DNA of 64,000 nt. Source: Collinsella sp. An307 (GTDB lineage: Bacteria; Actinomycetota; Coriobacteriia; Coriobacteriales; Coriobacteriaceae). The stretch spans positions 1 through 64,000 of the forward strand of contig NZ_NFIP01000007.1 of assembly GCF_002161805.1 (NCBI RefSeq), read 5' to 3'. A program made the position numbers and the translations under genes. Positions 54,557-59,639 of the stretch are shown piece by piece (positions within the stretch are counted from its first letter, which is position 1; each line of letters opens with the position of its first letter). Below the pieces are notes generated by a model that saw only the letters and a program-made list of their open reading frames with translations, had not been told where the DNA came from and did no database searches.

Positions 54557-55426
54557 TTAGAATCCCTGTTCCGCGATGAGCCAACGGGCCAGATCGAGCA
54601 CCCTGATGCCGTCAATCGTGTAGTCGTCGTGTCGTGTCCTCGCGATAAGAATCTTGGGGTAGGCATCTCGTATCGCACGCAGAGGAGCGAGCTCGCGCTC
54701 GAGCGTCTCGGGTGCGTCTACGTTATCGCTCACCTGAATGTAGACCTGCTCCGACCCTCGCTTGACGACGAAGTCGACCTCCTTCTGGTAGAGCTTTCCC
54801 ACGTAGGTCTCGTATCCGCGGCGAATAAGCTCCAAGAACACCGAGTTCTCGTACATGCGGCCCCAATCCATGTTGCGCGTGCCGAGCACCGCGTAGCGCA
54901 TACCCGTGTCGCACACGTAGTGCTTCGCCTGCGTGCTCAGGTACTTCTTGCCCTTGATGTCATAACGCTTGGCCTCGTAGAAGACGAAGGCGTCCCTCAG
55001 GTGCGAGATGTAGCGCCCAACCGTGACGTGGTTGGTCGACACTTTGTTTGCTTCGAGGGTGTTGGCGATGCTGTTCGGCGAGTTAAGGTTTCCGGTGTTG
55101 TCCATCATGTACTCGGCGAGCCGCTCGAGCACCAGCGTGTCGGGCAGACGGAACTTCTGTACGAGATCTCGCGTGAGGATAGTCCTGTAGACGTCCCTGA
55201 TGTAGCCGTATGACTCTGCCATGTCACGATACTCATAGGATCCAGCGAGGCCCCCGCGCTCGATATAGCGGTCCAGCTCTTCGTCGATGGCCCCCTGTTC
55301 GCCGAAGTATGCGCGGAACTCACCGAAACTGAACGGCAGAACATGAATCTCGCGGTGCCTGCCGGTGAAGAGTGTGGCAAGGTCGGAACTCAGAAGGAAC
55401 GCATTCGACCCGGTAAGACGGATGAA
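54557..55426 (-). pseudogene. DUF4143 ATPase, 5'-truncated remnant A
   Basis: The reverse-strand frame runs from TGSNAFLLSSDLATLFTGR through LPFSFGEF to a full C-terminal DUF4143 region (VDFVVKRGSEQVYIQV), about 290 residues. The N-terminal ATPase part with Walker A is missing: homology stops near 55426, and the frame continues upstream only as the antisense of an ACT-domain gene. No ribosome site fits. The family are AAA-like ATPases of unknown role, often found in variable numbers in gut bacteria. Confidence 0.75.
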
Positions 55427-55744
55427 GAGTACTCCCTGGTATGCGCCACCGGCGATGTCCCGCCGAACGTTGTTGAGCGAGACGACAGGTGGAGGGGCTT
55501 CCGCATCCAAGGGATGCTGGACTTCCCTCTCATCGGGATACTGGCCGGCATCGCGGAGACACTGGCGGGGAACGGCATCTCGATCTTTGCCATCTCGACC
55601 TACAACACCGACTACGTTCTGGTGAAGAAGGAGCGCTACCAGAGGGCGCTGGACATTCTCGAGCGCGCGGGATACGAAATCGTCGAGCGACGGCACCGCC
55701 TTCTCCTGGGCAGCGTCTTTGTGGTGCGCCTGCCCCTCACGTAG
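55415..55744 (+). pseudogene. ACT-domain (ACT_7/CASTOR-like) protein, 5'-truncated
   Basis: The frame KTDEEYSLVCA... with the LDFPLIGILAGIAETLA and ISIFAISTYNTDYVLV blocks is the C-terminal ACT domain of the ACT_7 family, which senses amino acids. The N-terminal domain is absent. The frame upstream to 55343 is antisense to DUF4143 remnant A, so translation would start in foreign sequence. The end is normal (TAG). Confidence 0.7.
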
Positions 55745-55784
55745 GAGGACACGGGGGTGTCTCTATATCGTGATGCCCTTTTTG

Positions 55785-56066
55785 ATACGGGGCCACGCGA
55801 GCGAGCGGCATGCCTCCGCGCACCGTGTACTCGGCCCAGCCCTGGTAGCGGTCGCCGCCGGAGCCCTGCATGAACTCGGAAAAGGACAACGGCCGTATTC
55901 GAACCTCGTCCCCGCGGCCTCGGAACTCCGTCATGACGTCATGCGAGGGGAGCTTCGAGTTACCCCCGTCACGCACACGTCGACGTTTCTCATGCGCAGA
56001 AGCCCGTTGAGTCTGTTGAGGTATTGGTCATGCCCGATTTCCACGCGTACCTCATCTTGGTTTCCA
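55785..56066 (-). pseudogene. DUF4143 ATPase, middle-part remnant B (frameshifted)
   Basis: Reverse-strand frames show EIGHDQYLNRLNGLLRMRN then VDVCVTG, and after a one-base loss continue GNSKLPSHDVMTEFRGRGD, LSFSEFMQG and YTVRGGMPLA. The expected TGSNSK codons read ACGGGG-GTAAC, one base short, giving the frameshift. Homology ends near 55785. It differs from remnant A, so it is another gene copy. Confidence 0.65.
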
Positions 56067-56072
56067 AGTCGG

Positions 56073-56118
56073 TTCTATTGAGCAGTTTTGCCGTATGCGG
56101 CATTTCTTCTCAATAGAA
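56073..56118. repeat. Imperfect inverted repeat
   Basis: Arms of 21 bases (17 of 21 paired): outer TTCTATTGAG and CTCAATAGAA are perfect, and an inner GCCG-TATG-CGGC hairpin closes it. It abuts remnant B. It could be an old terminator, a MITE end or a recombination scar. No transposase is nearby. Confidence 0.5.
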
Positions 56119-56261
56119 GTGTCTTGTGCCACAGAGACGCCCGGCTCAAAATGTTGCCACGCTAAACACGTCCCGCTCAAATCACTGCATGCCCCATCTC
56201 CGGCCCTACGACCATTGCCGCCTCCCCGTAAACAGTCACGCAGACCATCACATTGCTCGGC

Positions 56262-56505
56262 CTATCCCCACAACCCCATGTTCGGCATCGCGTACAGCGG
56301 GACGTTCCTCATCCAACCCTGCTCACGGTATCCCGAGAGGCTGAAGCGGACGGACCTTATTTTCGGATGAGCGCCCTTGAACGCCCGGAGGCTCTTGGCG
56401 CGCAGGTTCTCCTTCGCCTTCACCTCGATGGCATAGACGCTGTTCGCGTTCTGCACCAGGAAGTCAATTTCACCCGAGGAGTTCTCGGCCGACCAGTAGT
56501 GACGT
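56262..56505 (-). pseudogene. DUF4143 ATPase, C-terminal remnant C
   Basis: Reverse-strand frame YWSAENSSGEIDFLV then QNANSVYAIEVKAKENLRAK and SLRAFKGAHPKIRS is the DUF4143 nuclease-like C-terminal end of a third gene. It stops at 56262. Upstream it is cut near 56505 where prophage terminase sequence begins. The 56119-56261 stretch between remnants shows no coding sequence I can support. Confidence 0.65.
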
Positions 56506-57772
56506 CTCCGACTTCGTCATCCCGCGCTTCCACCCGGTGCTGGGCGACGTGATGGCCCACGGCCACACGCACTACTGGCTGCCGGGCGGGTGCGGCTCGA
56601 CCAAGAGCTCGTTCATCTCGATAGCAATTGTGCTTCTCATCATCGCGAACCCGAAGGCGAACGCGGTTGTGGTGCGGCGCTTCTCCAACACATTGCGCGA
56701 CTCGGTGTACCAGCAGATACAGTAGGCCATAGAGGTGCTGGGGCTGGAGGGCGTGTTCAGATGCAGGGTTTCTTCCATGGAGATCACCTACACCCCTACC
56801 GGGCAGCGCATCGTGTTCCGCGGGGCGGACGATCCGCTCAAGCTCAAGGGCGTGAAGTTCACCAAGGGCTATTGCAGCGTGGTGTGGTTTGAGGAGCTGG
56901 ACCAGTTCGAGGGTGTGGAGGCTGCTCGCTCCATCCTCAACTCGTTGCGCCGCGCCGGCGACCGCTTCTGGATCTTCTACAGTTATAACCCGCCTAAGAC
57001 GATGTGGTCCTGGGTGAACGTGGAGCGCCTGGAACGTGTGAGGCGTGACGACACCCTTGTGCGCGGTAGCTCTTATCTCGATGTGATCGAGACGCATCCC
57101 GACTGGCTGGGCGCACCCTTTGTCGAGGAGGCCGAGTACCTGCGCGACACGAACGAGCAGGCCTGGCGTTGGGAGTATTTGGGCGAGATCACCGGGACCG
57201 GTGGCGCCATCTTCGACAACGTGCACGAGGCGAAGCTTTCCGACTCTCGCATCCGCACCTTCCAACGTATTCGTAATGGTGTGGACTGGGGCTGGTTCCC
57301 GGATCCGTGGCGGTTCGTGCGCTGTGCCTGGGAGCCTGACGCGCGGCGCCTTCTCATCTTCGAAGAGCATTCCGCGAACAAGATGATGCCGGCGGAGACG
57401 GGCAAGATCGTGGTGGATTCTCTCACCTTCCCAGACGAGCAGGGCGCGGAGGCGTACTTCCACGACCAGATCGTCTATTGCGACGACACGCCTGATAGCA
57501 AGGTTCAGATGAACGTGTGGAGGCGCGAGCTCTGCATCCGCGTGCATGCAGCGCGCAAGGCCAGGATGAGGCGCTTGTCTTACGAGTGGCTGGCAGGGCT
57601 GCGCGAGATCGTGATTGACCCGGAGCGATGCCCCTTGACCTTCTCCGAATTCACCTTGAAGGAGTTCGAGATGGACAAGGAGGGCAACTGGATTGACGAG
57701 ATCCCAGATGGCAACGATCACAGCATCGACGCTGTTCGCTATGCCATGATAGACGACGTATTGCGAGGTTAG
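56501..57772 (+). pseudogene. Phage terminase large subunit with in-frame amber codon
   Basis: PBSX-type terminase. The frame reads FHPVLGDV, a P-loop GGCGSTKSSF and RRFSNTLRDSVYQQIQ, then TAG at 56723-56725, then continues in the same frame with AIEVLGLEGVF, WFEELDQFEG and NPPKTMWSWVN and the nuclease half to 57772. Homologues are expected to have Trp at the stop (TGG to TAG is one change). The first residues are missing at the junction with remnant C. ATG 56777 could give a nuclease-half product only. The P-loop has Cys where Arg is usual. Confidence 0.8.
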
Positions 57773-57775
57773 GAC

Positions 57776-58000
57776 ATGGCTCTTATCGGCGCCCTTCTCA
57801 TCATCTTCGTCATTGTCGGCATCTTTACGCTGTTTGAATTCTTGCGGCTGCTGGCGTGTGCTTTGGTTACCTTGGCTCTTCTCGCCCTTATCGGCGCCCG
57901 AGCCTTCGTGACTAGAGCAGGCGGAAGTGGTCGCCCCAGGCGGTTACGAGCATGTCCCTCACGGCCTTCTCGACCGCCTCTTTGTGCCTCGGCTGGATGA
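57776..58000 (+). CDS. Small hydrophobic ORF after terminase, probably disrupted
   Basis: The frame starts ATG 57776, 3 bases after the terminase stop, and encodes about 45 residues with one or two membrane helices (IGALLIIFVIVGIFTLF). From about 57912 it runs antisense to the reverse-strand gene and becomes Arg/Pro-rich, so only the first part is likely original. No family recognised. Confidence 0.3.
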   Translation: MALIGALLIIFVIVGIFTLFEFLRLLACALVTLALLALIGARAFVTRAGGSGRPRRLRACPSRPSRPPLCASAG

Positions 58001-58634
58001 GGAACATGTAGTAGCGTTGCGAGACCTTCTCGAACTTCAATGACAGGCCTGATGCTCCGGTGAGGTCTTCTCTTCTCAAGAGCTTCTCGAGCTGATCCGT
58101 GTAGAAGGGATCCTTCCGCCTGGCCTTATGCTGGTAATAGACGACCGTGGAGCCTTGGGCGTAATAGGCAGCGAGCTCTTCGGGCAGAACGTACTTGTTC
58201 TCCTTCGGCCTACCCTTGGCGGAAGGCACGACCAAACCGTTGTCTGGATCCACGCAGACGATGTCATTGCTGGCCATTTTACTGAGCGACTTTTCGAACC
58301 ACTCGGCACGGTCATCGATCCTCTTCGCCTTCTTCTTCCCTCTGAAATCAAGGCAGTCGGAGAAGAACGAGGCGCGCAGGATGTCGTCGTCCTCCATGTA
58401 GCTCACTTCTCGGTTTTCTCCATCGACGATCGCCTTGAGACCAAGCCAAAGGCCAGGATCACATGCGCGGTACTTCTCCTGCTTGAGGTAGTCCACGTGG
58501 CGGCCGTCGGTGTTGTGCGTCTCGTCCGGCGTGAGGTACCAGTTGAGCCCGATCGAGAGCCCTGCGGCCTGCAACGCCCTGAGCAGCCCTAGCTTGCTGA
58601 AATCGCCAATGTCGCCTGTGTATCTGTTCTGCAT
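57912..58634 (-). CDS. Prophage cargo protein of unknown function (GDIGD/DPDNG family)
   Basis: 240 residues, intact, on the opposite strand to all phage genes around it, with its own promoter. It opens MQNRYTGDIGDFSKLGLLRAL, has NWYLTPDETHNTDGRH (31-46), VCVDPDNG (127-133) and VVYYQH (164-169), and is hydrophilic without membrane helices. The Asp-rich loops after predicted strands suggest a metal- or nucleotide-dependent enzyme, but I cannot name a family. ATG 58634 begins the conserved-looking part; the frame upstream to 58751 contains the promoter. Location and orientation fit a phage moron, for example a defence or lysogenic-conversion gene. Confidence 0.75.
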   Translation of the reverse strand: MQNRYTGDIGDFSKLGLLRALQAAGLSIGLNWYLTPDETHNTDGRHVDYLKQEKYRACDPGLWLGLKAIVDGENREVSYMEDDDILRASFFSDCLDFRGKKKAKRIDDRAEWFEKSLSKMASNDIVCVDPDNGLVVPSAKGRPKENKYVLPEELAAYYAQGSTVVYYQHKARRKDPFYTDQLEKLLRREDLTGASGLSLKFEKVSQRYYMFLIQPRHKEAVEKAVRDMLVTAWGDHFRLL

Positions 58635-58665
58635 GGTCTTCTTCCTCAGCACTTCTTGTCTCGGT

Positions 58666-58671
58666 ATTATA
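58666..58671 (-). promoter_or_regulatory. Promoter of the prophage cargo gene
   Basis: Reverse-strand TATAAT, a perfect -10, with ATGTCA 17 bases upstream (58689-58694). It predicts a start near 58659, 25 bases before the ATG. Confidence 0.65.
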
Positions 58672-58743
58672 AGGAACAGGGCTTGTTGTGACATGCGCGG
58701 ACACTTCACCATGCCTATTCGCACGGTTGGAGGAGGTTTCCGC

Positions 58744-59205
58744 ATGAGCACTAATGGCCTGGATGAGTATTGGGTGCCGGAGCACGTGAAGGATTACTTG
58801 CGCAAGCTTGGGTTTGTCCTTCCCCTGGATGACATGGAGCCCTGGATACGTATCTGGGATGACTGGATGTCGGCCAGGGGCGAGTTTTACGACTATAGGG
58901 ACAAGGACGGCATGGGGCGCGTGTACGCGGTGCATCGTCGGTCCATTCACCCTGCCATGCGCGTTTGCAAGGAGTGGGGCTCTCTTCTCCTCAACGAGGA
59001 AGTGAAGGTCGACTGCGAGGACCAGAGGGCGACCGACTGGATCAACTCGTTCTTCTCCTCCACCAACTTCATGAACTCGGCGCAGGCAACCGTGGTGCGT
59101 GCCTTCGGCTTGGGCACGGGCGCCTGGGCGTTGTGGATCGACCTGGGCAAGAGGAAGGTTCGCATCCGCCACTATGACGCTCGCATGGTGATCCCGCTCT
59201 CATGA
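58744..59205 (+). pseudogene. Phage portal protein, N-terminal fragment
   Basis: The fragment reads STNGLDEYWVPEHVKDYLRK, RSIHPAMRVCKEWGSLLLNE, FGLGTGAWALWIDL and HYDARMVIPLS and then stops. This matches the N-terminal third of A118/SPP1-type portal proteins, which are normally 400-500 residues. GGAGGAGGT precedes ATG 58744. The sequence breaks at about 59200, where endolysin sequence begins, so the rest was lost by deletion. Confidence 0.75.
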
Positions 59206-59639
59206 AATCTGGTGCGCCCTCCGGCGACGTGTCAGAGCTTGCGGCGAGGGTCATCGCAGGCGATTTCGGCAATGGCGATGCTCGCAGGGCCGCTCTGGGA
59301 AGCCGGTACGACGAGGTCCAGGCGGAGGACAACCGGATCCTCTCAGGCGGCACCTCCGGTGGCTCCTGCGACGTGGACGCGCTCGCGCGCCGCGTCATCG
59401 CTGGCGAGTTCGGGAACGGCGACGAGCGCAAGCGACGCCTGGGGTCCAAGTACTCGGCCGTGCAGAATCGAGTGAACGAGATCCTGGGCGCAACCGGGGC
59501 GAGCTCGACCTCCATGGACGTCGACGCCATGGCCCGCGCGGCGATCCGCGGCGACTACGGCAACGGCGACGAGAGGAAGCGGCGCCTGGGCTCGTACTAC
59601 TCCATCGTGCAGCGGCGCGTGAACGAGATGCTGTCATGA
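59202..59639 (+). pseudogene. Endolysin C-terminal fragment with three CW_7 repeats
   Basis: 145 residues made of three Cpl-7/CW_7 wall-binding repeats, each like VDALARRVIAGEFGNGDERK...LGSKYSAVQNRVNEIL (about 10-47, 57-94, 107-144). No catalytic domain is present; it lies before the portal-lysin junction and has been deleted. The frame has an ATG at 59202 overlapping the portal stop, so a binding-only peptide might still be made. Confidence 0.75.

Follow-up and report, generated by a model that had tools for sequence, protein, structure and literature searches.

A predicted RlmJ-fold cargo gene of Coriobacteriia prophages and its slot between the terminase and portal genes

Why is one gene intact in a prophage whose neighbouring genes are broken, and what might it encode? 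This question is raised by a 240-codon cargo gene, here called X, which lies on the minus strand (57912..58634) of a 64,000-nucleotide stretch of the Collinsella sp. An307 genome (the window). The initial annotation described X as a complete gene between a broken terminase and a truncated portal, and the reading frame was indeed found to be open, from the ATG at 58634 to the TAG at 57912-57914. The GDIGDF, DETHNTDGRH and DPDNG motifs named in that annotation are all present in the translation.

Relatives of X were detected in 374 species-representative genomes, and against relatives at a dS of about 0.53-1.0 its dN/dS is 0.15-0.28. X is, therefore, a real gene and not a chance open reading frame. 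Its distribution is patchy, with X in 2 of 100 genomes of relatives and in 13 of 396 in the phylum. The family occurs mostly in bacterial contigs rather than phage records; 13 viral contigs carry it, and a tblastn search of 50,697 phage records returned no match. X is neither a core housekeeping family nor broken in most of its relatives, two outcomes that the initial annotation had set against its own reading. Searches of the protein against Pfam, NCBIfam, PHROGs, PADLOC and PDB sequences gave nothing significant, and the described defence proteins of PADLOC were not matched. Similarly, 77 members of the family compared with Pfam yielded no informative family, RlmJ included. In three Clostridiales contigs (L057, L064 and L069), X-type open reading frames of 349 aa are joined in frame to an ACT-domain protein. 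The ACT domain was set aside as a functional clue, as it looks like an in-frame joining to the neighbour gene.

The genes on either side of X have each lost a part. On the left, the large terminase subunit (TerL) is a pseudogene (56498..57772, plus strand; Terminase_3 in the intact relative) that has lost its first codons and carries one in-frame stop, TGG to TAG, at 56723. A frameshift was also considered for this gene and rejected, since there are no gaps in the alignment to L001, the closest relative, an IMG/VR prophage. Directly 3' of TerL lies a small, hydrophobic, membrane-protein-like reading frame (57776..58000, plus strand) without a Pfam match. It has 41-44 codons in relatives and is kept in X-bearing and some other loci; the window copy has lost its stop and continues antisense into X. 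On the right, the portal (58744..59204, plus strand; SPP1_portal in the intact relative) ends after codon 153 of 480, and the cut portal is fused to the end of a lysin-type gene with CW_7 repeats (59202..59639, plus strand; Pfam). Thus, the terminase is broken and the portal truncated, as had been annotated. The further claim that everything around X has decayed goes too far, since beyond the two truncations the coding flanks hold a single nonsense mutation.

The terminase remnant is preceded on its left by pieces of a DUF4143/AAA_14 ATPase gene (54557-56501), and the 5' end of TerL is apparently joined to ATPase-like sequence at about 56500; the piece at 56265-56456 has no Pfam match. The host genome also contains a second TerL of the same type (contig C3, 79% identical), which is followed by a 285-bp gap with no evident cargo.

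The lack of any lesion in X was earlier taken as a sign that selection retains it, a conclusion that finds no support once the decay and the gene are compared in age. Over about 577 codons, the flanks of X have acquired one nonsense codon; at this rate, the chance of zero lesions in 240 codons is about 0.66, or about two in three. Against L001, the broken TerL and portal still have dN/dS values of 0.096 and 0.073, respectively, which, with only one stop, indicates that the flanking decay is recent. X differs from its counterpart in L001 at 7 positions in 720 bp (99.0% identical), whereas the TerL and portal flanks differ by about 12.6% (87.4% identical). X was, therefore, exchanged as a cassette after the prophages diverged. 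The host has retained X after the prophage shrank to TerL-X-portal fragments, and this is too recent for selective retention to be claimed. The purifying selection on X over the longer term stems from the time spent in other prophages and genomes. It is quite possible, if somewhat short of probable, that the window copy, and this copy only, is a neutral leftover whose decay is yet to come. Both the recent breakage of the flanks and the recent exchange, after which an absence of lesions is expected by chance, fit such a reading. It is silent on the family, which shows purifying selection and a conserved slot, and it is compatible with the explanation preferred below. In a dead prophage, the intactness of a gene thus speaks for selection only when both ages have been weighed, and the case of X corrects a common inference from such genes.

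In related Coriobacteriia prophages with full-length TerL and portal genes, X is found at the same site and in the same orientation. When viral contigs were searched for TerL, 80 loci were obtained, 68 of them with a locatable portal. The gap between the two genes is below 80 bp in 13 of the 68, all with a TerL at most 66% identical, and larger (median 570 bp) in the remaining 55, eight of which hold X. The gaps without X hold HEAT repeats, a CAT-type acetyltransferase, Methyltransf_25, YjbR, cupin, an alpha/beta hydrolase, GIY-YIG, an Ltp lipoprotein, DUF2513, an FMN reductase or a 107-aa protein without a family match. As far as sequence comparison goes, these loci show that the gap is an exchangeable, mostly single-gene, opposite-strand cargo slot of a family of Coriobacteriia temperate phages, with TerL as its left border and the portal as its right border. 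Several of the other cargo types look metabolic, and the slot is, therefore, not specific to defence. X lies between conserved phage genes and is absent or replaced in related phages, as befits a moron. The proposal that X is phage cargo of this kind is upheld by the exchangeable slot, the promoter-like element and the patchy occurrence.

The promoter-like element of the slot lies upstream of X on the minus strand (58666..58694), at a set distance from the portal start. In the window (58694-58666), it consists of TATAAT and a -35-like ATGTCA at a spacing of 17 bp, with 10 of 12 matches; this pattern was observed once against 0.3 expected in shuffles. The perfect TATAAT and the -35-like element reported earlier were, thus, both located, the latter being weak. 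The relatives carry GTCACAA-N9-TGCCTTARAAT on the minus strand, with TGCCGTARAAT in two of them. This element stands exactly 52 nt from the portal start and upstream of eight cargo types. Its columns hold 1.75 bits, as compared with 0.82 for the other non-coding columns (13 representatives, Mann-Whitney p ~1e-7). When 2.9 million viral contigs were scanned for the exact pattern, it was found in 16 contigs, once in each, and 14 of the 16 occurrences were in the TerL-portal slot. The simplest reading is that the element belongs to the slot and not to any single cargo, and that a promoter stays in place while the coding sequences behind it are swapped. The element is a putative promoter; alternatively, it may be a protein-binding operator. 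A simple scan of 57650-58800 found no terminator-like hairpin around X. In L004, L008 and L015/L020, a 604-aa gene of the GmrSD type (type IV restriction-like) lies between X and the portal, and the promoter-like element is absent from its usual place.

The initial annotation could assign no family to X and proposed sensitive profile and structure-prediction searches. The profile searches remained empty, so that its statement holds at the level of sequence; at the level of fold it does not, as the predicted structure is RlmJ-like. RlmJ is the 23S rRNA m6A2030 methyltransferase (PDB 4blv, 4blw and 6qe5), and PDB 2oo3 is the DUF519 protein LPL1258. An AlphaFold2 model of X built with 77 sequences (pLDDT 96.9) had RlmJ and LPL1258 as its best PDB matches, with Z 11.0, 205 aligned residues and an rmsd of 3.9, as against Z 8.2 for the next family. 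A second model (pLDDT 91.8) was made of L088, a homologue that shares 37% identity with the protein in the window; it gave Z 11.4 for RlmJ/DUF519 and 8.7 for the next family, and all ten of its matches with E<=0.001 are RlmJ or DUF519. Both models match over about 200 residues, from the N- to the C-terminus. These models give good support to the prediction of X as an enzyme that adopts the RlmJ variant of the Rossmann methyltransferase fold.

It has been reported that K18 and D164 of RlmJ are required for activity and that H42 of its motif I packs against the adenine of the cofactor (PMC3814359). The aligned starts of X and RlmJ agree on a +4 register (X 1 to RlmJ 5, X 5 to RlmJ 9), which places the near-invariant Y5, G7, D8, D11 and K14 of X on H9, G11, N12, D15 and K18 of RlmJ motif X, the catalytic lysine among them. 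Furthermore, D129-P130 of X corresponds by motif to D164-P165 of RlmJ motif IV, with the second half reading DPDN in X and DPPY in RlmJ. The conserved catalytic centre is well supported for X, and by register and motif its Lys and Asp probably correspond to the catalytic residues of RlmJ. The SAM-binding motif I is a different matter. D40-H42-G44 is invariant in the RlmJ alignment and absent from that of X, where a WY...DG stretch is seen instead of DTHAGAG; since motif I is not RlmJ-like, the use of SAM by X is doubtful. At the level of sequence profiles, no similarity was detectable: the profile-profile comparison (hhalign) of X with RlmJ was not significant, with only 9 RlmJ sequences in the profile, and the RlmJ family profile (PF04378) gave no Pfam match to X. 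A structure search of BFVD likewise gave no match at E<=0.001. Moreover, RlmJ is a housekeeping enzyme, whereas X is accessory and mobile. X may act like, or descend from, an RlmJ-type enzyme, and it is not filed here in the RlmJ family.

As GC-rich DNA gives spurious antisense reading frames, the neighbours of X were not taken from bare lists of these; the claims are based on Pfam, PADLOC or tblastn matches. By raw count, six loci outside the slot have a macrodomain gene at a distance of 6-283 bp from X. McrC occurs in the vicinity of X in seven such loci (16 bp to 6.3 kb) and also, at 37 bp, in L101. Genes for vWA, ADP-ribosylglycohydrolase and DUF1643 proteins are also among the neighbours; most X loci are without a recognised defence neighbour. 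Co-directional clusters of McrC, X and macrodomain genes were observed in L102 (1-5339), L075 (3469-9455) and L100 (3454-9454), with an AAA gene upstream and a vWA or ADP-ribosylglycohydrolase gene downstream; their arrangement makes them candidates for a multi-gene conflict system. Beyond the portal, prophages with X in the slot carry a second cargo zone with HKD-Snf2, two AbiD and type I restriction genes (L003 3349-6597, L007 6546-7544, L009 483-1412 and L010 1660-7572). A role of X in phage conflict is indirectly supported by the recurrence of McrBC, macrodomain, GmrSD, AbiD and type I restriction genes in its neighbourhood.

What, then, might X do? We lean towards the view that it is a mobile moron in an exchangeable TerL-portal slot, encoding an RlmJ-fold enzyme that acts on nucleic acid and has a role in defence. 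As X lies on the opposite strand behind the promoter-like element of the slot, its expression from the prophage could be uncoupled from that of the late genes. Its product would most probably bind adenine, as a base or nucleotide within nucleic acid, and modify what it has bound, so as to protect the lysogen from other phages. The substrate, the use of SAM and the defensive role are all deduced rather than observed; among the possible roles, defence appears most likely, and host benefit is its main rival. In the latter case, X would be a metabolic or host-benefit passenger of the same fold; through modification of rRNA, tRNA or a nucleotide, it would alter translation, stress or drug tolerance in the lysogen. 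The CAT-type acetyltransferase, YjbR, cupin, hydrolase and FMN reductase of the same slot speak for this, as does the nearest fold relative being a 23S rRNA methyltransferase. Nevertheless, copies of X outside the slot are repeatedly found next to McrBC and macrodomain genes, and X is rare and patchy and not core; a host-beneficial role in place of defence is considered rather unlikely.

X could also serve the phage itself. It might, for instance, be a counter-defence enzyme that protects nucleic acid by modification from type IV or other restriction; the association with McrBC would then be the trace of an arms race. That X is carried by prophages, has its own promoter-like element and is linked to modification-dependent restriction genes (McrBC, GmrSD) would agree with this. 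The numbers do not, with the 374 genomic relatives set against 13 viral contigs and no match among the phage records, and at chromosomal loci X stands beside McrBC and not against it; a phage-serving role is, thus, judged improbable. A bolder proposal is that X founds a new enzyme family, in which the RlmJ fold has lost canonical SAM binding and works in a McrBC/macrodomain conflict pathway, and which is mobilized through a plug-in slot with a fixed promoter. X might, for instance, modify or repair adenine or an ADP-ribose-type adduct on nucleic acid. This is a speculative suggestion, and a rather unlikely one. The preferred reading remains that of the mobile moron with a nucleic-acid-acting, defensive product; as relatives elsewhere are often neighbours of anti-phage genes, X is a promising candidate for a novel defence enzyme.

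Parallels to this arrangement are known. In P2 and P4 phages and satellites, cargo hotspots between phage core genes have been described (Rousset et al. 2022, PMC9122126). These, like the X slot, are small, fast-changing loci between two conserved phage genes that hold accessory genes, some of them defensive. The X slot belongs, however, to a different phage family and host class and lies between TerL and the portal; it mostly carries one opposite-strand gene with one retained promoter-like element, and many of its cargo types are not known defence genes. Phage morons resemble X in being extra genes with a promoter-like element of their own, patchily present between late genes. They differ in that the element of the slot seems to stay while the coding sequence is swapped, and in the lack of a detected terminator-like hairpin. 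As for the type IV restriction systems of the McrBC type and their macrodomain partners, X repeatedly lies close to McrC and macrodomain genes in distant bacteria, whereas in the window it stands alone. To our knowledge, none of the described McrBC systems includes X.

No earlier description of the motif, of RlmJ in connection with defence, or of macrodomain genes with McrBC was found in the open-licence literature. Within that literature, the X family, with its predicted RlmJ-like fold and changed motif I, is new, as are the slot in Coriobacteriia phages and the retained promoter-like element. The family, with several hundred species-level members and unnamed in the libraries used, gains a predicted fold and testable catalytic residues, and the Coriobacteriia slot is a ready place to seek new defence and host-benefit genes. 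Two of its other occupants may be mentioned. On a phage contig (L108 3187-3921, minus strand), the slot gene is of the chloramphenicol-acetyltransferase family (CAT, E 1e-45). In L154 (12020-12724, minus strand), the gap contains a lipoprotein of the Ltp family by Pfam, a family that includes phage superinfection exclusion proteins.
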